From Nocardia elegans NBRC 108235 (GTDB lineage Bacteria > Actinomycetota > Actinomycetes > Mycobacteriales > Mycobacteriaceae), in contig NZ_BDBF01000012.1 in the NCBI RefSeq assembly GCF_001612845.1, forward strand, positions 1-64,000: a DNA stretch of 64,000 nt, in the 5' to 3' direction. The notes below the pieces were generated by a model, which was not told the origin of the DNA, did no database searches, and saw only the letters and a program-made list of their open reading frames with translations. The first letter of the stretch is position 1. The number at the start of each line of letters is the position of its first letter. Position numbers and translations under genes: made by a program. Of the stretch, positions 12,609 to 26,667 are shown piece after piece.

Positions 12609-13802
12609 CTACTCGGACCGGAGCGACCAGGCGATGGCCTGCGCCCGGTTGGCCGCACCGAATTTCCGCAGAATATGTTTGACGTGTGATTTCACGGTGC
12701 CTTCGGTAATGATCAGGCGCTCGGCGATGGCGCGGTTCGTCGCGCCCGCCAGCATCAGGCGGAATACATCGGCCTCCCGCTCGGTGAGATCGGCCATGTT
12801 CCCGTAGGCGCGCCCGGAGACGATCGAGGGGGATTCGGGATCCTCGGTGTTACCCGAACCGGCCATCGAGATGTCGGCCTCACACAGATCATCCATGCGA
12901 TTCACCGCGGAAACGATCAAATCCCGTACCTGATCGCGCTGTTCGCGCAGCTGTTCCAGTAACGCGGTGCGTTCGTAGATATGACTGAATCCATCGGTGA
13001 AGGCCCACAACACATCCCGGTCACCTTCGTCGGCGCGGCGAGTCAGCGGGTGGTGGTCGGCATGAACGAATCCGACCACATCGTCGCCGTGGACGATCGG
13101 GGCCACCACATACGATCGCGACCGCCCCGCATCGACGATGATCGGCCGGTAGACCGGAGCGTTCGCGGTGTCGTACACCAGCGACGGACGCCGTTTGGCG
13201 AGCAGCTGTGCCTCCGGCGCCCGGGAATCGAGCGGAATGCTCTGATTGATCCAGTCCACGAACCACGATTCCGATTCGCGTTCGCCGGCGAAATGCGCCA
13301 GCGACGGACGCCACGAACGTCCCTCCACTCGCGAGAGGACCACCCGCTGGAATCCGCAGCGCAGCACGATTTCCTCGCAGGCCACATCCAGTAGCGCCGT
13401 GGTGTCGCGAATGGAACGCAAGCGGCTCAATCCGGCGGCGCATTCCGCCAGCCGCTGACTGCGTTCGCCGGTGTCGTGAAGATAGAGGTCCAACGCGAGC
13501 TGCTGCAGCTCGAGTATCAAACCGCACATTCGCTCGGCGGACCCCGTATCGGCACTGCGGATGGTGCGCAAATGCGCGATACAGAAATGAATGAGGGTGG
13601 ATACCACCTCGGCCGAACGCCACGGGCCGTCCCATTCCACCCGCGGCAGCGCGGCGTCGGCGCCGACGGCATCGAAGACCGCATCGCGCAGCACCGCGAG
13701 CCGGGCGGCAATCTCTCCCTCTCGACGACGCCATCCCTGACGCACACGGCCGGTCGGGCCGACGCCGGTGTAATCACTCGCCATGGCCACTGCCATCGTC
13801 AC
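12609..13802 (-). CDS. GAF-domain LuxR-type transcriptional regulator (second of a tandem pair)
   Basis: 397 residues. N-terminal helical region, a GAF-like sensory domain at about residues 145-265 (contains YVVAPIVHGDDVVGFVHADH), and a C-terminal LuxR helix-turn-helix (LTEREADVFRLMLAGATNRA then IAERLIITEGTVKSHVKHIL). It starts at a GTG overlapping the stop of the gene before it by 4 bases, so the two regulators are co-translated. There is no phosphorylation receiver domain, so control is more likely by a ligand or redox change in the GAF domain. Target genes are unknown; the neighbouring Mce operon and the catabolic operon are candidates. Confidence 0.88.
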   Translation of the reverse strand: MTMAVAMASDYTGVGPTGRVRQGWRRREGEIAARLAVLRDAVFDAVGADAALPRVEWDGPWRSAEVVSTLIHFCIAHLRTIRSADTGSAERMCGLILELQQLALDLYLHDTGERSQRLAECAAGLSRLRSIRDTTALLDVACEEIVLRCGFQRVVLSRVEGRSWRPSLAHFAGERESESWFVDWINQSIPLDSRAPEAQLLAKRRPSLVYDTANAPVYRPIIVDAGRSRSYVVAPIVHGDDVVGFVHADHHPLTRRADEGDRDVLWAFTDGFSHIYERTALLEQLREQRDQVRDLIVSAVNRMDDLCEADISMAGSGNTEDPESPSIVSGRAYGNMADLTEREADVFRLMLAGATNRAIAERLIITEGTVKSHVKHILRKFGAANRAQAIAWSLRSE

Positions 13803-14974
13803 ACCCGCCGTTCATTGTTCGTGGCGCGAATGTATTGCGCGATGGCACTGGCACGATTCGGTGCGCCGATCTTGTGCAGTATGTGCTTGACATGGGATTT
13901 CACCGTGCTCTCGGCGACCGTGAGCCGGTCGGCCACCTGCGCATTGGTGAGGCCACCGGCCAGCAATCTCAATACCTCCCGTTCGCGAGCGGTCAGCCTC
14001 GCCAGACCACCGAGCTCGACCCGTCCGGAGTCCGCCCGCGCGGCAAGCGCTTCCGGTTCGACGGCCATCGCTGTGCGCACCGCCGGGTCTGGAAGCCGCA
14101 CCGACAACTTCTCGGGGGGCTCGAGTATCTGCTCGGCCGAGCGGAACACTTCGGACAATCGTTCACGCTGACGGGCCAGGCGTAACTCGAGCACGGTGCG
14201 CTCGTAGATCACGCCGATCCCCTCCGCGAAGGTACGCAGACTGTCACGGTCGGCGACGGTGAGCGGGCGTCCCGACAAATAGGTGTCGGCATGGAGCAAC
14301 CCGAATACCGAACCGCCCGCGATCAAGGGGGCGACCACGTATTCGCGAGTATGCGAGGCGTCCATCAGCGGACGGAAGGTCCGAGGCTCGTTCTGCGCGT
14401 CGGTGACCAGAGCCGGCAGCCGTCGCCGCACGATCTCCGCCTCGACCATCGGTGAGGCCAGCGGGATCTCGAGTTCGGCGATGTAATCGGTCAGTTCGCG
14501 GTTGAAGCCACTGTCGTTGCCATCCGACAGAAACAGCAGCGATGGCGCCCAGACCGAACCGCGCACCAGCGAGACCATGGCCCGGTCGAAGCCCGCCGCC
14601 GCACACAGTTCGGCCGCGGCGGCTTCGAAGACCTCGTCGGCGGTGGTCTTCCTGCGCAATCGTGCCAGCGCCTCGAAGATTCGCCCCGGAGCGAAGCTGG
14701 GCTGCGTCAGGGTTTGTTTCCTCAGTGTCGACTGCACCGCGCTCACATCGGTCAGTAGCTCGGCCAGATCGGTCACCTCGACCGAACCGCCCTGGACGGA
14801 GGCCAGCCGACGGTTCGTGCGTTCCAGAGTCACGCCCAGCAGTTGCAGGTAGGGCCGGTTGGCACCGCCCCCGGCGGCATGTTCGGCCAGTCGACCGACC
14901 CGGGTGTTCAGATCCGAAATCCGGGACACAAGCCCGGCGAAAGTGTGCTGCGGTACTGCTGCCGGTGCCCTCAT
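13799..14974 (-). CDS. GAF-domain LuxR-type transcriptional regulator (first of a tandem pair)
   Basis: About 391 residues from the ATG near 14974 (MRAPAAVPQHTF), preceded by GAGGGA; an in-frame ATG at 15139 exists, but its extra 55 residues look non-coding and would cover the promoter. Same architecture as the next gene: helical N-terminus, GAF-like domain (YVVAPLIAGGSVFGLLHADT), LuxR helix-turn-helix (LTAREREVLRLLAGGLTNAQ, VAESTVKSHVKHILHKIGAP). It is divergent from the flavoprotein gene at 15262, so it may control it. The exact start is uncertain by a base or so in my count. Confidence 0.85.
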   Translation of the reverse strand: MRAPAAVPQHTFAGLVSRISDLNTRVGRLAEHAAGGGANRPYLQLLGVTLERTNRRLASVQGGSVEVTDLAELLTDVSAVQSTLRKQTLTQPSFAPGRIFEALARLRRKTTADEVFEAAAAELCAAAGFDRAMVSLVRGSVWAPSLLFLSDGNDSGFNRELTDYIAELEIPLASPMVEAEIVRRRLPALVTDAQNEPRTFRPLMDASHTREYVVAPLIAGGSVFGLLHADTYLSGRPLTVADRDSLRTFAEGIGVIYERTVLELRLARQRERLSEVFRSAEQILEPPEKLSVRLPDPAVRTAMAVEPEALAARADSGRVELGGLARLTAREREVLRLLAGGLTNAQVADRLTVAESTVKSHVKHILHKIGAPNRASAIAQYIRATNNERRV

Positions 14975-15234
14975 CGTCCCTCGAGCTTCTACTGACGCAG
15001 GCCGGAATCCACGCAGCCCACGTTCCGGGTGCCTCGTCGCGCCCTTGGCCCAACTCCCGGGGTTCCACACCTCGCGCCACGTTAACAATGTGTTGCGCGA
15101 TTTACTTACGGCTACATAGTCCGTGATGCAGGTCACCATGTCAAGCGACCGCTATCGCAGGACCTGGTGCGAAATGCCGCGTCGTCAGACGTTTGAAGCG
15201 TCGATCAGCGACGAGCGGGACTCAGTCTCGCAAG

Positions 15235-15257
15235 CTAAGTGATTCGTGATTTACTAG
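15235..15257. promoter_or_regulatory. Palindromic operator candidate at the flavoprotein start
   Basis: Imperfect 23-base palindrome (CTAAGTGA-N7-TTTACTAG) ending 4 bases before the ATG at 15262. It resembles, loosely, the two 22-base sites at 16329 and 16438. No ribosome-binding site is visible between it and the ATG, so the transcript may be leaderless or nearly so. Confidence 0.45.
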
Positions 15258-15261
15258 CACC

Positions 15262-16284
15262 ATGGCATTGCCCGAATCCCTGACGAATCGGCTGACGATT
15301 CCCGCTATCGCCGCGCCCATGACGAGCGTGTCCGGCCCGGATCTGGTCATCGCCGCCTGCCGTAATGGCGTGGTCGGCTCCTTCCCGACGCACAACGCCG
15401 CCACCACCGAGGAGCTCGATGGCTGGCTCGACCGGATCTCCGCCGCGGTCGGCGGGCACAGCGGGCCGACCGCCCCCGTGGCACCGAACCTCGTGGTACA
15501 TCGGACGAACGCGCGCCTGCGGGCCGACCTGGACTGCCTGGTCCGCCACGGTGTCGAACTCGTGATCACCAGCGTGGGATCACCGAAGCCGGTCATCGCC
15601 CCGCTCCACGACATCGGCTGCCAGGTGTTCGCGGATGTCTCGAGCATGGCGCACGTGGAGCGCGCGCTCGAGGCCGGCGCCGATGGTCTCGTGCTGCTGA
15701 CCGCGGGCGCCGGAGGTCAGACCGGCTGGGCCAATCCGTTCGCGTTCACGCGCGCCGTCCGCGCACACTTCGACGGGCCGATCGTGCTCGCCGGTGGTAT
15801 CACCGACGGAACATCCATCCTCGCCGCACAGGCGCTGGGCGTCGATCTGGCCTATCTGGGGACGCGGTTCATCGCGACGACCGAAAGCCTCGCCGAGGAC
15901 GACTACCGCGCCGCACTGATCGAGTCGACACTCGACGATGTCACGCTGTCCACCCGGGTCGGCGGCATACCGGCCAGCCTGCTCGCGAGCTGGCTCGCCC
16001 GCGAGGACACGTCCGATCCGGGAACGCGGGACTCGAACGGCTTCGAACAGGACCGGCTGTTGCGCAACCGCACCGCCTGGAGTGCGGGGCACAGCGTGGC
16101 CGGAGTCGATGCCGTCACCTCGGTGGCCGAGCTGATCCGGACGATCGCCGAGCAATACGACCACGCACGGACGACGCTGTTGTCGACGCTCACCGGCCCG
16201 GGTTCGCCCGGCCGCGGCCCCGTGAGAGACCACACCGCCGACGGTCCCGCCGAATCGGTCGTCACCGGTTCACCCAGCCGATGA
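15262..16284 (+). CDS. Nitronate monooxygenase-like flavoprotein
   Basis: 340 residues forming an FMN-binding TIM barrel of the nitronate monooxygenase (2-nitropropane dioxygenase) family. Visible landmarks are the start strand TIPAIAAPM, the loop TAGAGGQTGWANP (about 147-159) and the phosphate-binding GGITDG (about 178-183), followed by YLGTRFIATTES. The family oxidises nitronates with O2; relatives include enoyl-ACP reductase FabK, so a reductase role on an unsaturated acyl substrate is an alternative. A related palindrome overlaps its start, and the next gene begins 238 bases downstream with its own operators, so it is probably a separate but co-regulated unit. Confidence 0.8.
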   Translation: MALPESLTNRLTIPAIAAPMTSVSGPDLVIAACRNGVVGSFPTHNAATTEELDGWLDRISAAVGGHSGPTAPVAPNLVVHRTNARLRADLDCLVRHGVELVITSVGSPKPVIAPLHDIGCQVFADVSSMAHVERALEAGADGLVLLTAGAGGQTGWANPFAFTRAVRAHFDGPIVLAGGITDGTSILAAQALGVDLAYLGTRFIATTESLAEDDYRAALIESTLDDVTLSTRVGGIPASLLASWLAREDTSDPGTRDSNGFEQDRLLRNRTAWSAGHSVAGVDAVTSVAELIRTIAEQYDHARTTLLSTLTGPGSPGRGPVRDHTADGPAESVVTGSPSR

Positions 16285-16328
16285 CCGAGGCTCCGGCAGC
16301 ATCGCCGGGATGCCCATCCGATCACTAG

Positions 16329-16350
16329 TTAGATACTTACCAATCACTAA
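16329..16350. promoter_or_regulatory. Operator candidate 1 upstream of the acyl-CoA carboxylase operon
   Basis: 22 bases of the form TTAGAT-N9-TCACTAA, an imperfect match to the site at 16438 with the same length and outer arms (TTAG...CTAA). It lies about 170 bases before the operon start. Confidence 0.5.
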
Positions 16351-16437
16351 ACATCGACATCCCCGAATGGAAGACCGAGAAAAATTCGCAGGCAAACCGG
16401 GATCATTGTCAGATCTTCCCTGATTGCTAGTCTTGAG

Positions 16438-16459
16438 TTAGTGTATTGCTATTCACTAA
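16438..16459. promoter_or_regulatory. Operator candidate 2 upstream of the acyl-CoA carboxylase operon
   Basis: 22-base palindrome TTAGTG-N10-CACTAA with perfect 6-base arms, 63 bases before the ATG at 16523. Length and symmetry suit a TetR-family dimer. No TetR gene is adjacent to the operon; the nearest regulators are the GAF-LuxR pair. Confidence 0.65.
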
Positions 16460-16522: not shown

Positions 16523-18121
16523 ATGCCCGTACTCAAATCCGAGGTCGACACCGCGTCGTCGACGTATCTGGAGAATCACGACACCCAGTCGGCGGCCGTG
16601 GCCGCCCTGAACGAACAGCTGGCGCTGGTCGCGGCCGGCGGCGGTGAGCGCTATGCCAAACGTCATCACGACCGCGGCAAACTGCTCGTACGAGAACGCA
16701 TCGAACTGCTGATCGACCGCGATGCCCCGTTCCTGGAGCTGTCCGCGCTAGCGGCCTGGGGCACCGAGTTCAACGTCGGCGCCGCGATCGTCACCGGCGT
16801 CGGCGTGGTGTCAGGGATCGAGTGCATGATCATCGCGCACGACCCCACCGTGCGCGGCGGCACGATGAATCCCTACACACTGCGAAAGAACTTGCGCGCG
16901 TTGGAGATTGCCCGCATCAACCGGCTGCCCGTGGTGTATCTCGTGGAATCCGGCGGCGCCGATCTGCCCACCCAGGCGGAGCTGTTCGTACACGCGGGCC
17001 GGATCTTCCACGAACTGACCGAGATGTCATCGATGGGCATTCCCACCGTCGCGCTGGTGTTCGGCAACTCGACCGCCGGGGGTGCCTATGTGCCGGGCAT
17101 GTGCGATTACGCGGTCCTGGTCGACAACGCGGCGAAGGTCTTCCTCGGCGGCCCGCCGCTGGTGAAGATGGCTACCGGCGAGGACGCCGACGACGAGGAA
17201 CTCGGCGGTGCGGATATGCATTCGCGAGTGTCGGGCCTGGCGGACTACTTCGCGGTCGACGAGACCGACGCCATCCGCATCGGGCGCGATATCGTCGCCC
17301 ACCTCAACTGGCGCAAGCTGGGTCCCGGGCCGAGCCAGCCCGCCGACGAACCCCTGTACGACGCCGAAGAACTGCTCGGCATCGCCTCCGGAAACCCCCG
17401 TATCCCCTTTGATCCGCGCGAGGTCATAGCCCGGATCGTCGACGGATCCCGCTTCTCGGAGTACAAGCCCCGCTGGGGCACCAGCATCGCGACCGGCTGG
17501 GCCTCGATCCACGGCTTCCCGGTCGGCATCCTCGCCAACACTCGCGGCGTCCTGTTCAGCGACGAGGCCAAGAAGGCAACCGAGTTCATCCTGCTGGCCA
17601 ACCAAACAGACACCCCGCTGATCTTCCTGCACAACGTCACCGGGTTCATGGTCGGCACCGAATACGAGCAGGGCGGGATCATCAAGGACGGCGCCAAGAT
17701 GATCAACGCGGTCACCAACAGCGACGTGCCGCACATCAGCATCAACATGGGTGGCTCGTTCGGGGCCGGCAACTACGGAATGTCCGGGCGCGCATACGAT
17801 CCGCGTTTCATGTTCACCTGGGCGAACGCCCGGCTGGCCGTCATGGGCGCCCAGCAGCTCGCCGGTGTGATGTCCATCGTCGGCAAGGCGGCGGCCGCCT
17901 CGGCGGGCCGGGAGTTCGACACCGAGGCGGACGCGAAACGCACCGCGGCCATCGAGAAGCAGATCGAAGACGAATCCCATCCGTTCTTCATCTCCGCGCG
18001 CCTCTACGACGACGGCGTGATCGACCCGCGCGACACCCGCTCCGTGCTCGGGATGTCCCTGTCCGCAGCCCATTCCGCCGAGGTCGCCGGTCGGCGCGGC
18101 TTCGGCGTCTTCAGGATGTGA
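16523..18121 (+). CDS. Acyl-CoA carboxylase beta subunit (carboxyltransferase), MCC/GCC type
   Basis: 532 residues from ATG 16523, preceded by AAAGG at good spacing; a GTG at 16490 is in frame but lacks such a site. Carboxyltransferase with both halves of the crotonase-like fold: GNSTAGGAYVPGMCDYAVLV and FLGGPPLVKMATGE in the N-half, NMGGSFGAGNYGMSGRAYDP and ANARLAVMGAQQLAGV in the C-half. It transfers CO2 from carboxybiotin to a branched enoyl-CoA. Its closest functional relatives are the methylcrotonyl-CoA (LiuB) and geranyl-CoA (AtuC) carboxylases. The DUF1446 gene in the same operon favours an AtuC-like role. It overlaps the alpha subunit gene as GTGA. Confidence 0.9.
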   Translation: MPVLKSEVDTASSTYLENHDTQSAAVAALNEQLALVAAGGGERYAKRHHDRGKLLVRERIELLIDRDAPFLELSALAAWGTEFNVGAAIVTGVGVVSGIECMIIAHDPTVRGGTMNPYTLRKNLRALEIARINRLPVVYLVESGGADLPTQAELFVHAGRIFHELTEMSSMGIPTVALVFGNSTAGGAYVPGMCDYAVLVDNAAKVFLGGPPLVKMATGEDADDEELGGADMHSRVSGLADYFAVDETDAIRIGRDIVAHLNWRKLGPGPSQPADEPLYDAEELLGIASGNPRIPFDPREVIARIVDGSRFSEYKPRWGTSIATGWASIHGFPVGILANTRGVLFSDEAKKATEFILLANQTDTPLIFLHNVTGFMVGTEYEQGGIIKDGAKMINAVTNSDVPHISINMGGSFGAGNYGMSGRAYDPRFMFTWANARLAVMGAQQLAGVMSIVGKAAAASAGREFDTEADAKRTAAIEKQIEDESHPFFISARLYDDGVIDPRDTRSVLGMSLSAAHSAEVAGRRGFGVFRM

Positions 18122-20151
18122 GAAATCCGATGCCTTCGACAGCCCCGAACAACCGGCCCGCGATCACCAAACTCCTCATCGCCAATCGCGGCGAGATCGC
18201 GTCCCGGGTCATCCGCACCGCACGGCAGATGGACATCGCCACCGTGGCGCTGTACTCCGACGCCGATATCGACGCACCGTACGTGCTCCAGGCCGACGAG
18301 TCGGTGCACCTGCCCGGCACGACACCCGCCGACACCTATCTGCGCGCCGACCTCGTGCTCGACGCGGCCCGCCGCACCGGCGCCACCGCGATCCACCCGG
18401 GCTACGGATTCCTTTCCGAGAACGAGCAATTCGCCCGCGACTGCGGGGCGGCAGGCGTGATCTTCGTCGGCCCCAGTCCCGAGGCGATCGCCGCGATGGG
18501 CTCGAAAATCGAGGCGAAGCGCATGATGGCCGCCGCGGGGGTGCCGGTACTGCCCGGCGCCACCGTCGAGAACGAGTCCGACGAGGACCCGGAACGGCTG
18601 CGCGCGGCCGCCGCGGAGATCGGCTTTCCCATCCTGGTGAAGGCGGCATTCGGTGGCGGCGGGCGCGGTATGCGCATCGTGTCCGATCAGAGCGAGTTGA
18701 TCGAGGCGGTCGGCAGCGCCCGGCGCGAGGCCGCCTCGGCGTTCGGGAACGGCACGGTATTCCTGGAGAAGTTCGTGCAGTCTCCACGGCATATCGAAGT
18801 ACAGATCTTCGGCGACAGCTTCGGCACGGTCGTCCATCTCGGTGAACGCGAATGCTCGATCCAGCGGCGATACCAGAAGATCATCGAGGAGTCGCCGTCC
18901 ACCGCGGTCGACGACGCACTGCGCGACGAACTCGGACGCGCCGCGGTAGCCGCCGGTAAGGCGCTGTCCTACGAGGGTGCCGGCACGGTGGAATTCGTGA
19001 TGGCGCAGGACGGCTCGTTCTACTTCCTCGAGGTCAATACCCGCCTGCAGGTCGAACATCCCGTGACCGAACTCGTCACCGGCATCGATCTGGTCCGCGG
19101 CCAGCTGCTGGTCGCCGCAGGCGCACCGCTGCCCGAGGAAATGCTCGATGTCACCCCGCAGGGCCACGCGATGGAGGTCCGTCTCTACGCCGAAGACGTT
19201 GCGGCAGGCTTCATTCCGGTATCGGGAACATTGACGACGCTGGAGTTCGCGAACCTTCCCGGTGTTCGCGTCGACGCCGGGTTCGCCTCCGGCTCCCAGG
19301 TGAGCACCTACTACGATCCGATGCTCGCGAAGGTGATCGGATACGGCCCCGACCGCGACGCGGCCTGCGATCGAGTAGCACGCGCTCTCCAGGAGACCCG
19401 CATCCACGGAGTGACGACCAACCGGGACCTGCTGATCGGCATCCTGCGCGAACCCGAATTCCGCTCCGGCGCCATCGATACCGGATATCTCGAACGACAC
19501 GATCCGGCTGATCTGATGGATCACCGCAACGGCAACGATTCGGCAGGGCCAACCCACGCCCTGGTCGCCGCCCTCGCCGCGCAAGCCGATCGCCGCGCGA
19601 ACTCCCCAGTGCTGCCCGGCCTGCCGTCCGGCTTCCGCACTCTGCCCAGCGCACCCCAATCGGTGTCCTTCCAGGCAGGCGACAAGGTGATCGACGTCGA
19701 ATACCGCTTCGACCGGGCCCGCCTGAGCGCGCGAGTAGGCGACTGGCGGCCGGAAAGTCTCGAACTCGAGGCCGCGACCGCCGAACTCGTCGACATCGCC
19801 ATCGACGGCGTCAGACGCCGATATCGCATCATCCGCAGCGGTGCAACGCATTTCGTCGACAGTGCCCTCGGCGCAACCGAACTGCACGAGGTCGAACGCT
19901 TCCCCGACCCGAGCGACATCCAGGAAGCCGGATCCCTGCTGGCCCCCATGCCTGGGACGGTCGTGAGCGTCGAAGTGGCTGAAGGACAATCGGTTTCGGC
20001 GGGGGACGCGGTCGTGGTGCTCGAGGCTATGAAGATGCAGCACACCATTCGGACTCCTTCGGACGGCATCGTCGTGAAGATCCCCGTCGCGGTGGCTGCA
20101 CAAGTCGATTCGGGCCAGGTGCTGGCGGTCGTGCAGGACGGTGAGGACTGA
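18118..20151 (+). CDS. Acyl-CoA carboxylase alpha subunit (biotin carboxylase and biotin carrier)
   Basis: 677 residues from the GTG at 18118, overlapping the beta-subunit stop by 4 bases (ATG at 18130 is the alternative). Biotin carboxylase domain: KLLIANRGEIASRVIRTAR, HPGYGFLSEN, the ATP-grasp glycine loop KAAFGGGGRGMR, EVNTRLQVEHPVTE. The C-terminal biotinyl domain carries the biotin attachment motif EAMKM (Lys about 639). It makes carboxybiotin with ATP and bicarbonate for the beta subunit. It corresponds to LiuD or AtuF in pseudomonads. The stop shares a base with the next start (TGATG). Confidence 0.92.
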   Translation: MRNPMPSTAPNNRPAITKLLIANRGEIASRVIRTARQMDIATVALYSDADIDAPYVLQADESVHLPGTTPADTYLRADLVLDAARRTGATAIHPGYGFLSENEQFARDCGAAGVIFVGPSPEAIAAMGSKIEAKRMMAAAGVPVLPGATVENESDEDPERLRAAAAEIGFPILVKAAFGGGGRGMRIVSDQSELIEAVGSARREAASAFGNGTVFLEKFVQSPRHIEVQIFGDSFGTVVHLGERECSIQRRYQKIIEESPSTAVDDALRDELGRAAVAAGKALSYEGAGTVEFVMAQDGSFYFLEVNTRLQVEHPVTELVTGIDLVRGQLLVAAGAPLPEEMLDVTPQGHAMEVRLYAEDVAAGFIPVSGTLTTLEFANLPGVRVDAGFASGSQVSTYYDPMLAKVIGYGPDRDAACDRVARALQETRIHGVTTNRDLLIGILREPEFRSGAIDTGYLERHDPADLMDHRNGNDSAGPTHALVAALAAQADRRANSPVLPGLPSGFRTLPSAPQSVSFQAGDKVIDVEYRFDRARLSARVGDWRPESLELEAATAELVDIAIDGVRRRYRIIRSGATHFVDSALGATELHEVERFPDPSDIQEAGSLLAPMPGTVVSVEVAEGQSVSAGDAVVVLEAMKMQHTIRTPSDGIVVKIPVAVAAQVDSGQVLAVVQDGED

Positions 20152-20915
20152 TGCGGGACGAAGTCCACTACGAGATCGACGACGGTGTCGCGTGGCTGAC
20201 GATCAATCGGCCGCATGCTCGCAACAGCCTCAGCAAGGCCGTGCGTCACGGCCTTTTCGAGGGTGTACGCCGCTTCAACGCCGACGACGGTGCGAAGGTC
20301 CTGGTACTTACCGGCGCCGGAGACAAGGCATTCTGCGCCGGCGGTGATCTCAAGGAGATGTCGGAAGAGAAGCTGACGATTCCGCCTGTCGACTACGTCC
20401 CGCAGTTCGGCCGGAATATCGAGGTTCTCAAACCGACCATCGCCGCGGTCAACGGCGCGGCCTTCGCCGGTGGCTTCCTGCTCGCGCAGACCTGCGACCT
20501 GTGTATCGCCTCCACCACGGCGACGTTCGCCATTTCGGAGGTCAAGGTAGGCCGCGGTTCGCCCTGGGCGGCCCCGCTTCCCCAGATGATCCCCCGGCGG
20601 GTGGCCATGGAGATCGTCTTGACCGGCGCCCCGATAACGGCGGAGCGCGCCTACCAGATCGGATTCGTCAATCAACTGGCAGAGCCCGATCAACTGCGCG
20701 AGCGCGCACAGGCGCTCGCCCAGCAGATCGTCGCGAACGCTCCGTTGTCGGTCCTGGCCGGTAAGCAAACCATGGCACTGACCGCGGAATACCCATTGCG
20801 CGATGCCTTCGATCGTGCCGAAAAGATCTGGGCACCAGTGTATTCGAGCGAGGACGCGCAGGAGGGCATGCTGTCCTTCGCCGAGAAGCGCGCCCCCCGA
20901 TGGCAGGGAAAGTAA
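20151..20915 (+). CDS. Enoyl-CoA hydratase/isomerase family protein
   Basis: 254-residue crotonase-fold enzyme. The CoA-binding oxyanion features are visible: KAFCAGGDLKEMSEE (about 63-77) and NGAAFAGGFLLAQTCDLCIA (about 101-120). In Atu/Liu-type routes the hydratase (AtuE or LiuC) adds water to the glutaconyl-CoA made by the carboxylase; this gene follows the carboxylase directly and fits that step. At the usual catalytic Glu positions I read EVKVGRGSPW, where Glu at the first site is kept and the second position is less clear. Start TGATG with the alpha subunit. Confidence 0.88.
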   Translation: MRDEVHYEIDDGVAWLTINRPHARNSLSKAVRHGLFEGVRRFNADDGAKVLVLTGAGDKAFCAGGDLKEMSEEKLTIPPVDYVPQFGRNIEVLKPTIAAVNGAAFAGGFLLAQTCDLCIASTTATFAISEVKVGRGSPWAAPLPQMIPRRVAMEIVLTGAPITAERAYQIGFVNQLAEPDQLRERAQALAQQIVANAPLSVLAGKQTMALTAEYPLRDAFDRAEKIWAPVYSSEDAQEGMLSFAEKRAPRWQGK

Positions 20916-21715
20916 TGGCCCTCGACTATCCCGCGCTGCTGCGCGAACTCGAGCAGGAGACCAAACGGCTGATCGACTGCCTTTCGAGCTCGTCCGAACT
21001 GGCCTGGGAATCAGCCACTCCCGCACCGGGCTGGACCATCCGTGACCAGGTATCACACCTGGCCTACTTCGACGACTGCGCGCATCTGGCCCTCACCGAT
21101 GCCGAGCGGTTCCATACCGAGGCGGCCCGGCTGACAGCGCTCGGACCGGACTTCCCCGACCGCGTGGCCGAGGCCAATCGCCACCTTCCATCCGGCGATC
21201 TGCTGACGTGGTTCGAGGAATCCCGCGCCCGGCTGCTGACCGCGTTCAGCACCGATGATCCCCGCCGCCGCCTGCCCTGGTTCGGGCCGGATATGAGCGT
21301 GGCCTCCTCGGTGACCGCGCGGCTGATGGAAACCTGGGCGCATGGTCAGGACATCTACGACGCACTGGGGGCCAGTCATCCGCTGAGCTCCGGGCTGCGC
21401 AGCATCGCGCATCTGGGTGTCAGCACGTTCGCGTTCGCTCATCAGCTGCACCATCTGGCCGTGCCGACCCAACCCGTACGGGTGGAACTGGATGCGCCCG
21501 ACTCCGACGAGGTGTGGACCTGGGGACCGGCCGACGCGGCGGATCGGGTGACCGGCCCCGCCGAAGATTTCGTCCTGGCGGTCACGCAGCGTCGCCACTG
21601 CGACGACACGAAGCTGACCATCACCGGGCCTGTCGCATCGAGGTGGATGGCAATCGCGCAGGCGTATGCCGGGGCTCCCGGAACCGGCCGACCGAGCCGA
21701 ACCAGCGCTCGCTGA
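20915..21715 (+). CDS. DinB-like / TIGR03084-type metal-binding protein
   Basis: 266 residues from ATG 20915 (TAATG overlap; AGGGAAAG upstream). Four-helix-bundle protein of the DinB/mycothiol-dependent maleylpyruvate isomerase superfamily: WTIRDQVSHLAYFDDCAHLA supplies the first His, and METWAHGQDIYDALG and FAHQLHHLA further His positions likely to bind a divalent metal. Some members use mycothiol as cofactor. Its place inside a carboxylase/AtuA operon suggests a role in the same pathway, perhaps an isomerase or a hydrolase, but no reaction is known to me for this subgroup. Confidence 0.75.
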   Translation: MALDYPALLRELEQETKRLIDCLSSSSELAWESATPAPGWTIRDQVSHLAYFDDCAHLALTDAERFHTEAARLTALGPDFPDRVAEANRHLPSGDLLTWFEESRARLLTAFSTDDPRRRLPWFGPDMSVASSVTARLMETWAHGQDIYDALGASHPLSSGLRSIAHLGVSTFAFAHQLHHLAVPTQPVRVELDAPDSDEVWTWGPADAADRVTGPAEDFVLAVTQRRHCDDTKLTITGPVASRWMAIAQAYAGAPGTGRPSRTSAR

Positions 21716-21729
21716 AGGGAATTCGACTG

Positions 21730-23517
21730 ATGAATCGAACAACGCCGCGCAGGCCGGTGCGTATCGGCAATGCGTCGGGCTTCTATGGCGACCGCTTCGC
21801 CGCCTTTGAGGCGATGGTCGAGGGTGGGCCGGTCGACGTGGTCACCGGTGATTACCTGGCCGAGCTGACGATGCTGATTCTGTGGAAAGCCAAGCAGAAG
21901 GATCCCGAAACCGGTTATGCCAAAACGTTTCTGAGCCAGTTCGAGCGAGTCGCGCGGTCCTGCGCGGAGCGCGGCATCAAAATCGTGGTCAATGCCGGCG
22001 GGCTCGAGCCGGCCCGTCTGGCCTCTCGGGTCAGGTCGGTCGTGCACGAAGCAGGGCTCGAACTTTCGGTCGCCCACATCGAGGGTGACGATATCGTCGA
22101 GCGCCTGCCGCAACTGCAGGCCGCCGGCCACACGTTGCGTCATCTCGACACGGGAATCACACTCGCCGAGTCCGGCGCCCAGCCGATTTCGGCCAACGCC
22201 TATCTCGGCGGCTGGGGTATCGCGGCGGCGCTGGCGCGTGGCGCCGACGTGGTGATCACGCCGCGGGTCACCGATGCGGCGCTCGTGGTGGGCGTCGGAG
22301 CGTGGTGGCACGACTGGAAACGCACCGATTTCGACGCGCTTGCGGGTGCGGTGGCCGCGGGCCACATCGTCGAATGCGGACCACAGGCCACCGGCGGCAA
22401 CTACTCACAGATCAACGAGATCACCGACCGGCGCTATCCCGGTTCGCCGATCGCAGAATTGGCGCACGACGGCAGCTTCGTCATCACCAAGCACGAGGGC
22501 ACCGGCGGGTTGGTGTCGCCCGGAACGGTTACCGCGCAGTTGCTCTACGAAGTCGACTCGCCCGTCTATCTCAATCCGGACGTCGTAGCACATTTCGACA
22601 CTCTGCAGCTGACCCTGGAAGGTTTGGACCGTGTGCGTGTCAGTGGCGCCACCGGTTCACCCCCGCCGTCGACGCTGAAGGTCGCGATGAACTTCATCGG
22701 CGGGTACCGCAACACGATGACCCTCGTGCTGACCGGCCTCGACATCGAGGAGAAGGCGCGATGGGCCACCGACCAGCTGTTCGAAATCCTGGGTGGGCGA
22801 GACCGATTCGACGACGTCGATGTCCAGCTGTTGCGGTACGACCGAGCGGAGCCGACGCGGCTGAGCGAGTCGACGGCGCATTTGCGGGTTACCGTCAAAG
22901 ACCGCGAGCGGGCGAAGGTGGACCGGTCCTTCTCCAACGCGGTGCTCGAGCTCGCCGTCGGCGGGTACGCCGGATTTCACACCACGACCCCGCCGTCGTC
23001 GGCCTCCGAATTCGGCGTCTACTGGCCGACCGTGATTCCTGCCTCCGAGATCGAGCAGATCGTGGTGCACGCCGACGGCTCGCGCGAAACGATCCCGCAC
23101 ACCCCACAGACCGACGACCGCTGTACCGGCGTTATCCCCGGCCACGACGGCACGTCCGGCACAGTCGATTTCGGGCCGACGACCCGGCGGCCGCTCGGTT
23201 CGGTGGTCGCGGCCCGATCGGGCGACAAGGGGGGCAAGGCGAATGTCGGAGTGTGGACGGACACCGTCGAGCGATGGCATTGGCTGCGCTCACATCTGAC
23301 CGTCGAACGATTCACCGAATTGGTACCCGACGCGGCGGGTTTCGAAATCCGGCGATACGAATTCCCCAACCTGCGCGCGTTGAACTTCGTCGTCGTCGGA
23401 TTTCTCGGTGACGGTGTCGCATCGTGCACTCGGACCGATCCACAGGCCAAGGGACTCGGTGAATTCCTGCGTGCGACGTACACCGACATTCCGGACAAAC
23501 TCGCGGGAGATTCCTGA
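21730..23517 (+). CDS. Acyclic terpene utilization AtuA-family protein (DUF1446)
   Basis: 595 residues from ATG 21730. The N-terminal DUF1446 domain (about 10-460) begins VRIGNASGFYGDRFAAFEAM and contains GGWGIAAALARGADVVITPR and TDAALVVG. A C-terminal AtuA-like domain carries the signature ARSGDKGGKANVGVW. Pseudomonas AtuA is needed for citronellol and geraniol degradation, but its reaction is not settled. Fusion of the two parts in one protein is usual for actinobacterial members. Its presence is the best clue that the operon handles an isoprenoid or branched acid. The stop shares a base with the acyl-CoA dehydrogenase start. Confidence 0.85.
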   Translation: MNRTTPRRPVRIGNASGFYGDRFAAFEAMVEGGPVDVVTGDYLAELTMLILWKAKQKDPETGYAKTFLSQFERVARSCAERGIKIVVNAGGLEPARLASRVRSVVHEAGLELSVAHIEGDDIVERLPQLQAAGHTLRHLDTGITLAESGAQPISANAYLGGWGIAAALARGADVVITPRVTDAALVVGVGAWWHDWKRTDFDALAGAVAAGHIVECGPQATGGNYSQINEITDRRYPGSPIAELAHDGSFVITKHEGTGGLVSPGTVTAQLLYEVDSPVYLNPDVVAHFDTLQLTLEGLDRVRVSGATGSPPPSTLKVAMNFIGGYRNTMTLVLTGLDIEEKARWATDQLFEILGGRDRFDDVDVQLLRYDRAEPTRLSESTAHLRVTVKDRERAKVDRSFSNAVLELAVGGYAGFHTTTPPSSASEFGVYWPTVIPASEIEQIVVHADGSRETIPHTPQTDDRCTGVIPGHDGTSGTVDFGPTTRRPLGSVVAARSGDKGGKANVGVWTDTVERWHWLRSHLTVERFTELVPDAAGFEIRRYEFPNLRALNFVVVGFLGDGVASCTRTDPQAKGLGEFLRATYTDIPDKLAGDS

Positions 23518-24668
23518 TGGACTTCACCGAATCCACCGAGCACCGCGACCTTCGCCGCGCGATCGGCGCGATCACCGACAAGTACGGCCCCGCCTACTAT
23601 GCCGAACGCGCCGTGGCTCATGAGCCGACCACCGAACTCTGGCAGGATCTCGCCGATCACGGTTTCATCGGAATCAATCTGCCCGAGCAGTACGGCGGCG
23701 GCGGCGCCGGAATGACCGAACTGGCGATGGTGTGCGAAGAGACCGCCGCGCACGGCTGCCCGCAACTTCTGTTGCTCGTGTCCAGCGCGATTTCCGGTGA
23801 GCTGCTGACGAAATACGGCACCGACGCGCAGCGACGGGAGTGGTTGCCGCGCATGGCATCCGGCACGAAGGTCGTATTCGCGATCACCGAACCCGACGCT
23901 GGATCCAACAGTCATCGGATATCCACGACTGCCCAGCGGTCGGGCAGCGACTATCTGCTGACCGGAACCAAGTACTACATCTCCGGTGTCGATGAGGCGG
24001 CCGCATTGATCGTCGTCGCCCGCACCGGGATCGACGAATCCAGCGGCGCGGCGCGGATGTCGTTGTTCCTGGTCCTGACCGACACTCCCGGCCTCGTCAA
24101 ACACCGGCTGCCGGTCGGAATCAGCGTGCCGGAAAAGCAGTTCACGCTGCACTTCGACAATGTCCGGCTGCCCGCCTCCAGCCTCATTGGCGTCGAAGGC
24201 GACGGGTTCCGCCACGTCTTCGACGGGCTCAATCCCGAGCGAATCACCGGGGCCGCGGTCTGTGTCGGGATAGGCCGCTTCGCCGTCGAGCGCGGTGCGG
24301 CCTATGCCCGTACCCGGTCGGTGTGGGGCTCGCCCATCGGCGGCTATCAAGGGATCGCGCATCCGCTGGCGAAGGCCGAGATCGAGGTCGATCTCGCGGC
24401 GATGATGACCGCCAAGGCCGCATGGCTGTACGAGCGGGGCATGCCGGCCGGCGAGGCGGCCAACATCGCGAAGTACGCCGCCGCCGAGGCCGCGGTCGCG
24501 GCCGTCGACCACACGATTCAGATCCACGGCGGAAACGGCATCAGTACCGAGTACGGCCTCTTACCGCAGTGGGGGCTGGCGCGGTTGCTGCAGATCGCGC
24601 CGGTCAGCCGGGAGATGATCCTCAATTACGTTGCCCAGCACAGGCTTGGGCTTCCGAAGTCCTACTGA
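23517..24668 (+). CDS. Acyl-CoA dehydrogenase family flavoprotein
   Basis: 383 residues with the normal three-part fold: N-terminal helices, FAD-contacting FAITEPDAGSNSHRIST (about 121-137), beta domain, and C-terminal helices with HGGNGISTEYGLLPQWGLAR. It should introduce the double bond before carboxylation (role of AtuD, citronellyl-CoA dehydrogenase, or LiuA, isovaleryl-CoA dehydrogenase). At the place of the medium-chain enzyme's catalytic Glu (normally IYEGT) it reads IAPVS, so the base must come from elsewhere, as in isovaleryl-CoA dehydrogenase, or the activity differs. Confidence 0.88.
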   Translation: MDFTESTEHRDLRRAIGAITDKYGPAYYAERAVAHEPTTELWQDLADHGFIGINLPEQYGGGGAGMTELAMVCEETAAHGCPQLLLLVSSAISGELLTKYGTDAQRREWLPRMASGTKVVFAITEPDAGSNSHRISTTAQRSGSDYLLTGTKYYISGVDEAAALIVVARTGIDESSGAARMSLFLVLTDTPGLVKHRLPVGISVPEKQFTLHFDNVRLPASSLIGVEGDGFRHVFDGLNPERITGAAVCVGIGRFAVERGAAYARTRSVWGSPIGGYQGIAHPLAKAEIEVDLAAMMTAKAAWLYERGMPAGEAANIAKYAAAEAAVAAVDHTIQIHGGNGISTEYGLLPQWGLARLLQIAPVSREMILNYVAQHRLGLPKSY

Positions 24669-24678
24669 ACGAGGCGAG

Positions 24679-26667
24679 ATGACCGACACCACCGCTGAGC
24701 ACCGAGACGTGTACCCGCCTACCGCCGAATTCGCCGCGGCGGCCAATGCCGATGCGTCCATCTACGAGCGGGCGACGGCGGATCGCGACGGGTTCTGGGC
24801 CGAGCAGGCGCAGCGGCTGCACTGGCATCAACCATGGGATCGGGTGCTGGACTGGGACGACGCGCCGTTCGCGCGCTGGTTCACCGGCGGCAAGCTCAAC
24901 GTCGCCTACAACTGCGTGGACCGCCACGTCGCCGACGGCTACGGCGACCAGGTCGCCATCCACTGGGAAGGTGAGCCCGGCGATTCCCGCTCGATCACCT
25001 ACGCCCAACTGCAGGCCGAGGTGAGCCAGGCCGCCAACTACTTCACCGAACTCGGCCTCGTCGCCGGCGATCGGGTCGCGATCTACATGCCGATGGTTCC
25101 CGAGGCCATCGTCTCGATGCTGGCCTGCGCGCGGCTGGGCCTGACCCATTCGGTGGTCTTCGCCGGCTTCTCCCCCAGCGCCCTGCGCCAGCGCGTCGAC
25201 GACGCCGAGGCCCGCCTGGTGATCACCACCGACGGACAGTGGCGCCGCGGTAAGGCCGCACCGCTGAAGGAAGCCGTCGACGAGGCGCTCTACGCCCACG
25301 GCGACGTGCCGCACAGCGTGGAACACGTACTGGTGGTGCGCCGCACGAATATCGAGATCCCGTGGACCGAGGGCCGCGACCTGTGGTGGCACGAAACCGT
25401 CGCCCAGGCCAGTCCCGAGCACGAGGCCCAGCCTTTCGATGCCGAGCACCCGCTCTACATCCTCTACACCTCCGGCACCACCGGAAAACCCAAGGGCATC
25501 CTGCACACCTCCGGCGGCTACCTGACCCAGGTCGCCTACACCCACCACTACGTCTTCGACCACAAACCCGGCGCCGACGTGTACTGGTGCACCGCAGACA
25601 TCGGCTGGGTCACCGGGCACTCCTACATCGTGTACGGCCCGCTGGCCAACCGCGCCACCCAGGTCGTCTACGAGGGCACCCCCAACTTCCCCGACGAGCA
25701 CCGGCACTGGCAGATCATCGAGAAGTACGGTGTCACAATCTATTACACCGCACCCACGCTGATCCGCACCTTCATGAAGTGGGGCCGCGAGATCCCCGAC
25801 GCCCACGATCTGTCCTCGCTGCGCGTGCTCGGCTCGGTCGGCGAACCGATCAACCCCGAAGCCTGGCGCTGGTACCGCGAAGTCATCGGCGCGGGCAGCG
25901 CACCCATCGTGGACACCTGGTGGCAGACCGAAACCGGCGCCATCATGATCTCCCCGCTGCCCGGCATCACCCCCGCCAAACCCGGCGCCGCCATGGCCCC
26001 GCTGCCCGGCATCACCGCGAAAGTCGTGGACGAGGAAGGCAATTCGGTCGAAAACAATCGAACCGAAGCCGAATCTTCGGACCGCTCCGCAAGCTCCGCG
26101 GTCGTCGGATACCTCGTGCTGGACCAGCCGTGGCCGTCGATGCTGCGCGGCATCTGGGGCGACGACGAACGCTACAAGGCCACCTACTGGGAACGCTTCG
26201 CCGCCCAGGGCTGGTACTTCGCCGGCGACGGCGCCAAGATCGATGCCGACGGCGCGCTGTGGGTCCTGGGCCGCGTCGACGACGTCATGAACGTCTCCGG
26301 CCACCGCATCTCCACCGCCGAAGTCGAATCCGCGCTCGTCGGCCACCACAGCGTCGCCGAGGCCGCGGTCGTCGGCGCCAGCGACGCCACCACCGGACAG
26401 GGCATCGTCGCCTTCGTCATCCTCACCGGCGGCTCGAACAACTCCGGACAACAACTGGTGGACGAGCTCAAGGCCGAGGTCTCCCGCGAGATCAGCCCCA
26501 TCGCACGCCCCCGCGAGATCCACATCGTGCCCGAACTGCCCAAGACCCGCTCCGGCAAGATCATGCGCCGCCTGCTGCGCGACGTTGCCGAGGGCCGCGA
26601 ACTCGGCGACACCTCCACCCTGGTCGACCCCAACGTGTTCGAAGCCATCCGCGCCTCCAACGCCTGA
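24679..26667 (+). CDS. acs: Acetyl-CoA synthetase (AMP-forming)
   Basis: 662 residues from ATG 24679, 10 bases after the dehydrogenase stop, with GAGGCGAG upstream; an earlier in-frame start at 24631 overlaps that gene and is rejected. ANL-family ligase: YTSGTTGKPKGILHTSGGY (P-loop), VDTWWQTETGAIMISPLPG, and the C-terminal PKTRSGKIMRRLLRD with the catalytic, acetylation-prone Lys. A short acidic insert (about residues 456-474) follows KVVDEEGN. It activates acetate (or propionate) to the CoA ester. In the Atu route the lyase step releases acetate, so recapture of that acetate would explain its place here (inference). Confidence 0.9.
   Translation: MTDTTAEHRDVYPPTAEFAAAANADASIYERATADRDGFWAEQAQRLHWHQPWDRVLDWDDAPFARWFTGGKLNVAYNCVDRHVADGYGDQVAIHWEGEPGDSRSITYAQLQAEVSQAANYFTELGLVAGDRVAIYMPMVPEAIVSMLACARLGLTHSVVFAGFSPSALRQRVDDAEARLVITTDGQWRRGKAAPLKEAVDEALYAHGDVPHSVEHVLVVRRTNIEIPWTEGRDLWWHETVAQASPEHEAQPFDAEHPLYILYTSGTTGKPKGILHTSGGYLTQVAYTHHYVFDHKPGADVYWCTADIGWVTGHSYIVYGPLANRATQVVYEGTPNFPDEHRHWQIIEKYGVTIYYTAPTLIRTFMKWGREIPDAHDLSSLRVLGSVGEPINPEAWRWYREVIGAGSAPIVDTWWQTETGAIMISPLPGITPAKPGAAMAPLPGITAKVVDEEGNSVENNRTEAESSDRSASSAVVGYLVLDQPWPSMLRGIWGDDERYKATYWERFAAQGWYFAGDGAKIDADGALWVLGRVDDVMNVSGHRISTAEVESALVGHHSVAEAAVVGASDATTGQGIVAFVILTGGSNNSGQQLVDELKAEVSREISPIARPREIHIVPELPKTRSGKIMRRLLRDVAEGRELGDTSTLVDPNVFEAIRASNA

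Follow-up and report, generated by a model that had tools for sequence, protein, structure and literature searches.

Similar palindromes stand in front of a flavoprotein gene and of an acyl-CoA carboxylase operon in a stretch of 64,000 nucleotides from Nocardia elegans NBRC 108235 (contig NZ_BDBF01000012.1), referred to here as the window. The question raised by this locus is which protein reads them. A preliminary description of the same DNA proposed one TetR-type regulator for both units, encoded elsewhere in the genome, or else an involvement of the GAF-LuxR pair next to the flavoprotein gene. The comparative analysis reported below makes it highly probable that the three palindromes are operators of a single TetR repressor of the BkaR subfamily, which by synteny is encoded ~36 kb upstream in the same large catabolic cluster and would be relieved by an acyl-CoA.

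Results

Gene content of the locus

The genes and candidate sites of the locus are listed below in order of position; scores refer to the held-out matrix described in the next section.

12609..13802, minus strand: GAF-LuxR regulator 2 (Pfam GerE, GAF)
13799..14974, minus strand: GAF-LuxR regulator 1, divergent from the NMO-like gene (Pfam GerE, GAF)
15087..15108, unstranded: candidate weak site in the gap upstream of the first GAF-LuxR gene, AATGTGTTGCGCGATTTACTTA; 7.7 bits only
15236..15257, unstranded: candidate operator of the NMO-like flavoprotein gene, TAAGTGATTCGTGATTTACTAG; ends 4 nt before the ATG; 24.5 bits
15262..16284, plus strand: NMO-like (nitronate monooxygenase-like) flavoprotein (Pfam PF03060)
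16329..16350, unstranded: candidate second, weaker operator, TTAGATACTTACCAATCACTAA; 109 nt upstream of the main site; 23.5 bits
16438..16459, unstranded: candidate main operator of the carboxylase operon, TTAGTGTATTGCTATTCACTAA; perfect core; 63 nt 5' of the ATG at 16523
16523..18121, plus strand: acyl-CoA carboxylase carboxyltransferase (β) subunit, MCC/GCC type (Pfam PF01039)
18118..20151, plus strand: biotin carboxylase/BCCP (α) subunit with MCC-α BT domain (Pfam PF21139, PF00289, PF02786, PF00364)
20151..20915, plus strand: enoyl-CoA hydratase (Pfam PF00378)
20900..21715, plus strand: maleylpyruvate-isomerase-like family protein (NCBIfam TIGR03084, over cut-off)
21583..23517, plus strand: AtuA family protein (Pfam PF07287); start uncertain, overlaps the preceding gene as read
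23517..24668, plus strand: acyl-CoA dehydrogenase (Pfam PF00441, PF02771)
24631..26667, plus strand: acetyl-CoA synthetase-like enzyme, AcsA (NCBIfam TIGR02188, over cut-off)

AcsA is possibly the last gene of the carboxylase unit, if gene overlap is taken as a sign of co-transcription. The best PDB match of the carboxylase β subunit (16523-18121) is the methylcrotonyl-CoA carboxylase β subunit (3u9r), and geranyl-CoA carboxylase (5ikl) ranks sixth. The GRIFFNQ motif of 3u9r, whose second phenylalanine we take to be a substrate-pocket position, reads GRIFHEL in the subunit of the window. With this replacement, the enzyme may act on a substrate other than methylcrotonyl- or geranyl-CoA. A PDB search with AtuA gave no relatives at E 0.001.

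The surrounding cluster is spread over contigs C21 and C12 and also encodes two acyl-CoA ligases, an aldehyde dehydrogenase, a fused hydratase/hydroxyacyl-CoA dehydrogenase, a thiolase, a luciferase-like oxidoreductase and a protein with an acyl-CoA dehydrogenase N-terminal domain. Mce-type genes were recognised in it by reading the sequence, not by family search. Its gene content looks like that of a system for the import and β-oxidation of a branched, terpenoid-like acid. One long open frame of the cluster (C21 of the window's genome, L174:9465-13226) encodes a Ser/Thr kinase domain close to the N-terminus.

Palindromic sites in the window

All three sites reported in the preliminary description are present. 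However, the exact core TTAGTG-N10-CACTAA, which had been given for both 22-base sites, occurs only at 16438-16459 (TTAGTGTATTGCTATTCACTAA). Two of the 12 core bases deviate at 16329-16350 (TTAGATACTTACCAATCACTAA) and three at 15236-15257 (TAAGTGATTCGTGATTTACTAG). The conserved motif exceeds the 12-base core and approximates TTAGTGAAT-N4-ATTCACTAA in 29 sites from related loci. The matrix derived from these 29 sites includes Nocardia sites, two of them from the window, and scoring was therefore repeated with a held-out matrix of 18 non-Nocardia sites only. The three highest scores of the window then fall on exactly the three sites, 34.8 bits at 16438-16459, followed by 24.5 and 23.5 bits, and the next score is 7.7 bits.

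The top score in 100 Markov windows with the held-out matrix was 16.6 bits. A harsher control, 2000 Markov sequences of 2050 nt modelled on the AT-rich gap, gave a 99.9th percentile of 21.6 bits and a maximum of 22.7 bits; all three sites outscore it, the weakest (23.5 bits) by a narrow margin. Over 274 kb of other Nocardia loci the held-out matrix yielded a single score of at least 18 bits (19.6, at the BkaR-type locus L143). The loose 12-base core with up to 3 mismatches has 7 matches in the window against 3.3 expected, a number reached by 5 of 100 shuffles, so that this count is near chance and uninformative.

The genome search suggested in the preliminary description, for which a random frequency of the pattern would speak against a regulatory role, was carried out on 7.54 Mb in 117 contigs. 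The 18-position consensus TTAGTKWWTNNNNATTCACTAA with up to 3 mismatches matched only the three places in the whole genome, and a reversed-pattern control over the same 7.54 Mb gave zero matches. The same consensus in nine relatives has some matches outside the cluster, and several of the ten operon-bearing genomes have such 3-mismatch matches. The pattern RGTKANT-N4-ANTMACY with zero mismatches occurs at three places in the window's genome, one of them upstream of a BkaR-type gene and none of them one of the three sites. Because of the held-out ranking and the genome-wide uniqueness of the consensus, the three sites are judged to be real and not products of chance.

Conservation of the sites across genera

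GTDB genomes scanned with the AtuA protein yielded 55 loci, of which 21 combine an NMO-like gene with a close carboxylase; these belong to Nocardia, Mycolicibacterium, Mycobacterium and one metagenome-assembled genome labelled Actinomycetota. A site with at most 2 mismatches precedes the carboxylase gene in 21/21 of these loci and the NMO-like gene in 15/21. By matrix score, an NMO site of at least 26 bits is present in 20/21 (the matrix being partly trained on them), the exception being the Nocardia metagenome-assembled genome L012. The degenerate second site, 103-109 nt upstream of the main one, was recognised by eye in 7 of 8 Nocardia sequences, including the window, and is absent in N. harenae. 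These matches indicate that counterpart sites at the two promoters are conserved in Nocardia and mycobacteria.

Elsewhere the position of the site varies. It lies before the carboxylase in Rhodococcus Leaf278 and Rhodococcoides kyotonense, before the acyl-CoA dehydrogenase in Gordonia polyisoprenivorans and Amycolatopsis alkalitolerans, between these two genes in N. aurantiaca, and before AtuA in Gordonia asplenii. Sciscionella, Amycolatopsis tucumanensis and two Prauserella loci have no site of at least 14 bits before the operon, although the TetR gene described below is present. More distant loci (Chloroflexi, Acidimicrobia, Gammaproteobacteria and others) have isolated matches of 15-16 bits at most. 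Within Nocardia, sites with at most 2 mismatches occur in 10/10 operon-bearing genomes versus 4/138 others. Other 2-mismatch matches in the window's genome include C12:73913 (12-13 bits) and C39:15957.

A distant TetR gene accompanies the operon

It is borne out that no TetR gene adjoins the two units; the window's clear TetR domain lies near 38 kb, and one weak match (E 1e-4) lies near 41-42.6 kb. Several related loci do have a TetR gene beside the operon while lacking an adjoining LuxR pair, divergent in L018 and L025, upstream in L031 and downstream in L033 and L034. A TetR gene next to the operon was seen in Rhodococcus/Rhodococcoides, Sciscionella, Amycolatopsis alkalitolerans and N. aurantiaca. 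In the two Rhodococcus-type loci L018 and L025 the same kind of site lies between the TetR gene and the divergent carboxylase operon, and in L025 there are two sites in this gap (26.1 and 33.2 bits), each facing one of the two genes.

The homologue in the window's genome is found on contig C21 (match 20393-20926, open frame 20363-20986, minus strand). When C21 and C12 are aligned to two relatives, reversed C21 is continued by the start of C12; in G049 the counterparts of C21:34 and C12:19 are 40 nt from each other. By this synteny the TetR gene would lie ~36 kb upstream of the NMO site. The protein has an N-terminal helix-turn-helix domain (PF00440, 55.6 bits, cut-off 24) and a C-terminal domain (PF17932, 31 bits, cut-off 26.4), and its AlphaFold2 model (pLDDT 91.2) comprises nine helices in the all-helical TetR fold. 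The corresponding frame in G049 (L129:1465 and relatives) has a stop directly before AISEQ and lacks a usual start codon there; it possibly starts at ATT/ATC or further in.

The closest PDB sequences are 4g12, 6yj2 and 6yl2, followed by the Mce3R group (9b7y, 101.7 bits). A Foldseek search placed the model nearest to 6yj2, titled BkaR, with a TM score of 0.83 and 37% identity. BkaR (Rv2506/MSMEG_4718) is described in PMC3920632 as the TetR repressor of the accD1 branched-chain keto-acid operon, an acyl-CoA carboxylase operon; according to that paper it is autoregulated and binds as a dimer to the core GTTA(N)T(N4)A(N)TAAC.

The distribution of the TetR gene follows that of the operon. Among 148 Nocardia genomes a TetR match of at least 166 bits occurs in exactly ten (G000, the window's genome, and G001, G021, G049, G057, G074, G086, G101, G134 and G135), the next best match being 118 bits. 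The same ten are those with an operon-type AtuA (>800 bits; next AtuA 673 bits). In G021, G049, G057, G074, G086 and G135, each with both genes on one contig, the TetR gene has the orientation of AtuA and is located 15 to 56 kb upstream of it; in G001 (N. aurantiaca) it comes directly after AtuA. In addition, the genomes behind 25 of the 55 loci were searched, with N. aurantiaca counted both here and among the ten, and 24 of the 25 have a TetR match of at least 172 bits (50-74% identity). The exception is Gordonia OPL2, which has an AtuA of only 45% identity. Because the clusters share a common descent, the co-occurrence counts are not independent. Taken with the divergent arrangement and the upstream sites, this co-occurrence supports the proposal that one TetR-type regulator, encoded elsewhere, serves both units.

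Sites at the TetR promoter

A further check proposed in the preliminary description, a TetR gene with the same site in its own promoter, gave a mixed outcome. The palindrome is present at the target promoters, and in 12 of 37 TetR homologue rows a site in the own or shared promoter, within 330 nt upstream of the TetR gene, scores above all 100 control stretches (maximum 17.2 bits), whereas 25/37 have none. Some genes occur twice among the 37 rows, the best site of L018 and L025 is shared with the divergent carboxylase, and the L025 site was among those used to train the matrix. An 18.4-bit site lies 1.4 kb upstream of the TetR gene in three near-identical Amycolatopsis/Prauserella rows.

The site of the window's genome is weak, in the range of 18-19.5 bits. 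It reads TTAGTGAATTGCGGTTAACGTT (C21:21213-21234; 19.5 bits, 18.2 held out) and is situated in the gap that separates the TetR gene from a divergent acyl-CoA ligase, at 36 nt from the start of the latter. Rhodococcoides likewise has two sites at the start of a ligase that resembles it by eye, one of them overlapping the first possible start codon, and for this reason the ligase is likely to be a shared target of the TetR. Two operator-like sites in N. aurantiaca (G001:C7:56770-56895) precede a gene that is acyl-CoA-dehydrogenase-like by eye, ~22 kb from the carboxylase; this gene is a possible extra target.

Another sequence, AGTCAAT-N4-ACTAACAT, is found just upstream of the TetR gene in several Nocardia (C21:20995-21016, equivalent to L175:995-1016, and L128, L131 and L132). 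It differs from the BkaR core by one mismatch in L128, L131 and L132 and by two in the window's genome, and cross-talk of BkaR with the candidate TetR through it is possible.

Alternative binders of the sites

The GAF-LuxR pair is a natural candidate by position. It is divergent from the NMO-like gene and adjoins it in 21/21 loci with NMO and carboxylase, and the mycobacterial NMO operator is no more than ~30 nt away from where LuxR1 is estimated to start. Nonetheless, Rhodococcus Leaf278 (G170), N. aurantiaca (G172) and A. alkalitolerans (G165) keep site and TetR in genomes with no GAF-LuxR homologue; the best LuxR1 matches there (42.5, 42.8 and 50.5 bits) cover little beyond the helix-turn-helix. 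The involvement of the pair allowed for in the preliminary description is thus not supported, and it is very unlikely that one or both of these regulators bind the sites and activate both units. The BkaR paralogue, encoded on C60 of the same genome, is a second candidate, as its operators have the same dyad spacing and the mycobacterial NMO-type sites have one GTTATT half as in BkaR operators. However, an exact BkaR-type core already lies upstream of this genome's own BkaR-type gene, and the strongest site, GTGTAT-N4-ATTCAC, departs from the BkaR core GTTA(N)T-N4-A(N)TAAC in both halves. Moreover, 18 of 20 operon-free Nocardia with a BkaR-type gene (19/20 with the core upstream) have no site at up to 2 mismatches. 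Binding of the three sites by BkaR itself is accordingly given little credence.

Close to the candidate, the cluster has a second, oppositely oriented TetR gene (C21:18061-18681). Its close homologues (at least 337 bits) are present in only 4 of the 7 operon-bearing Nocardia queried; among 9 other site-bearing genomes G. polyisoprenivorans has the best match, with 169 bits (47%), and the rest do not exceed 101 bits. It was rejected as the regulator for this patchy presence across site-bearing genomes, and the chance that it fills the role is slight indeed. The near-chance count of the loose core would be in keeping with palindromes that are accidental or structural features with no regulator, but the held-out motif, the genome-wide uniqueness and the conservation across genera speak against such a reading, which is scarcely credible. 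The TetR gene at C21:20363-20986 is therefore the preferred regulator.

Discussion

Proposed mode of regulation

The sites, their conservation and their link to the distant TetR gene were computed; from these we infer physical binding, repression rather than activation, and an acyl-CoA ligand. In the proposed mechanism, a TetR dimer would bind AGTGAAT-N4-ATTCACT-like half-site pairs over the NMO promoter and, through the main site and the weaker site 109 bp upstream, over the promoter of the acyl-CoA carboxylase/AtuA operon. A weaker TetR site would lie between its own gene and the divergent acyl-CoA ligase. When inducer is lacking, the bound TetR would block RNA polymerase. An acyl-CoA produced by the ligase or the pathway would bind the C-terminal domain and release the protein, upon which ligase, flavoprotein and carboxylase operon would be turned on together.

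The placement of promoter-like elements fits this scheme. In 11 of 14 non-Nocardia loci the NMO operator is preceded, at a distance of 2-14 nt, by a TTGAC hexamer. The carboxylase operators of the two Rhodococcus-type loci contain a TAGTTT with TTGAC(A/T) 17-18 nt upstream of it; the assignment of TAGTTT as a -10 element is suggestive only. Inspection of the Nocardia promoters by eye gave no clear -35 box. Given the placement of TTGAC and TAGTTT, promoter elements seem to lie beneath the operators, in keeping with repression. In the window the end of the NMO operator is 4 nt from the ATG, a distance suggestive of a leaderless transcript. The ligand is probably an acyl-CoA of the pathway, as judged from BkaR, KstR2 and FadR-type relatives. 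Palmitoyl-CoA interferes with BkaR binding, according to a report cited in PMC3920632.

The GAF-LuxR pair may itself be under control of the TetR. The candidate weak site at 15087-15108 (TGTGTT-N4-GATTTACTTA) is kept in 7/7 Nocardia sequences examined, including the window, and tentatively points to this. A broader evolutionary reading, which we regard as doubtful, is that a BkaR-like repressor and its acyl-CoA carboxylase target were duplicated in ancient times, and that a second regulon arose from them, self-contained, with a new inducer and with its operator shifted. The regulon of mycobacteria and Nocardia would then have developed into a two-tier circuit, with the TetR repressing the GAF-LuxR pair as well. 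The latter part is based on the site near the LuxR start in mycobacteria and on the conserved weak site in Nocardia. If the two-tier circuit is true, one acyl-CoA signal would free both the catabolic genes and a second, activator layer of a ~50-kb import-and-degradation cluster.

The preferred TetR would provide a regulator, an operator and a small regulon for the AtuA/acyl-CoA carboxylase pathway in Nocardia, mycobacteria, Rhodococcus, Gordonia and Amycolatopsis. The ligand of the repressor would name the pathway substrate, and a search confined to adjoining genes would miss the regulator in Nocardia. The presence of two paralogous repressor/operator pairs in one genome, the BkaR type and the candidate, would offer a test bed for the divergence of TetR specificity.

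Comparison with known systems

BkaR is the closest parallel, sharing with the candidate a biotin-dependent acyl-CoA carboxylase operon as target and a 16-bp core palindrome with a 4-bp spacer. The BkaR-type homologues also served as a positive control for the method: of 20 homologues at 35-41% identity that look like BkaR, 19 have a copy of the published core, with no more than one mismatch, at 90-159 nt ahead of where the match begins. The operators nevertheless differ, mainly in a frequent G at the third core base and in the flanks. The half-sites of the candidate are mostly GTGAAT, GTGTAT or GTTATT with TTA flanks, whereas those of BkaR are GTTANT with TC-type flanks. The recognition helix reads GITGSGIYRHF in the TetR of the window's genome and GISGPAVYRHF in 10/10 BkaR-type rows. 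No rule was found between the recognition-helix residue (S, A or P) and base 6 of the half-site, as the promoters mix G, T, A and C. In a tree of 29 candidate and 10 BkaR-type rows, the latter named by their operator and the M. tuberculosis BkaR sequence left out, a branch with 100/100 support separates the two groups and places the candidate outside the clade of the BkaR-type rows. The operon of the candidate includes AtuA and NMO, unlike that of BkaR, and the candidate gene is often distant.

The AtuR cluster holds AtuA and a geranyl-CoA carboxylase. AtuR of Pseudomonas aeruginosa is likewise a TetR-like repressor, described as having a divergent neighbour 280 bp away (PMC3511530). Compared by description alone, AtuR differs in that its gene adjoins its target, whereas the candidate TetR lies ~36 kb away. 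Mce3R of M. tuberculosis is reported as a double-TetR protein with a non-palindromic 25-bp site (PMC11667970), while the candidate is a single TetR unit with palindromic sites and shares 28% identity with it in the fold search. The best NCBIfam match is the SACE_7040 family (NF050111; 158.3 and 161 bits), below its curated cut-off of 250. Among the titles and abstract openings of the best matches in the open-licence literature, no description of this operator or TetR was found; PMC4482099 tabulates motifs of 30 mycobacterial TetR genes, one of which may be related. Set beside these regulators, the system is ordinary in kind, a TetR repressor with its operators, and what is new is the specific candidate regulator.
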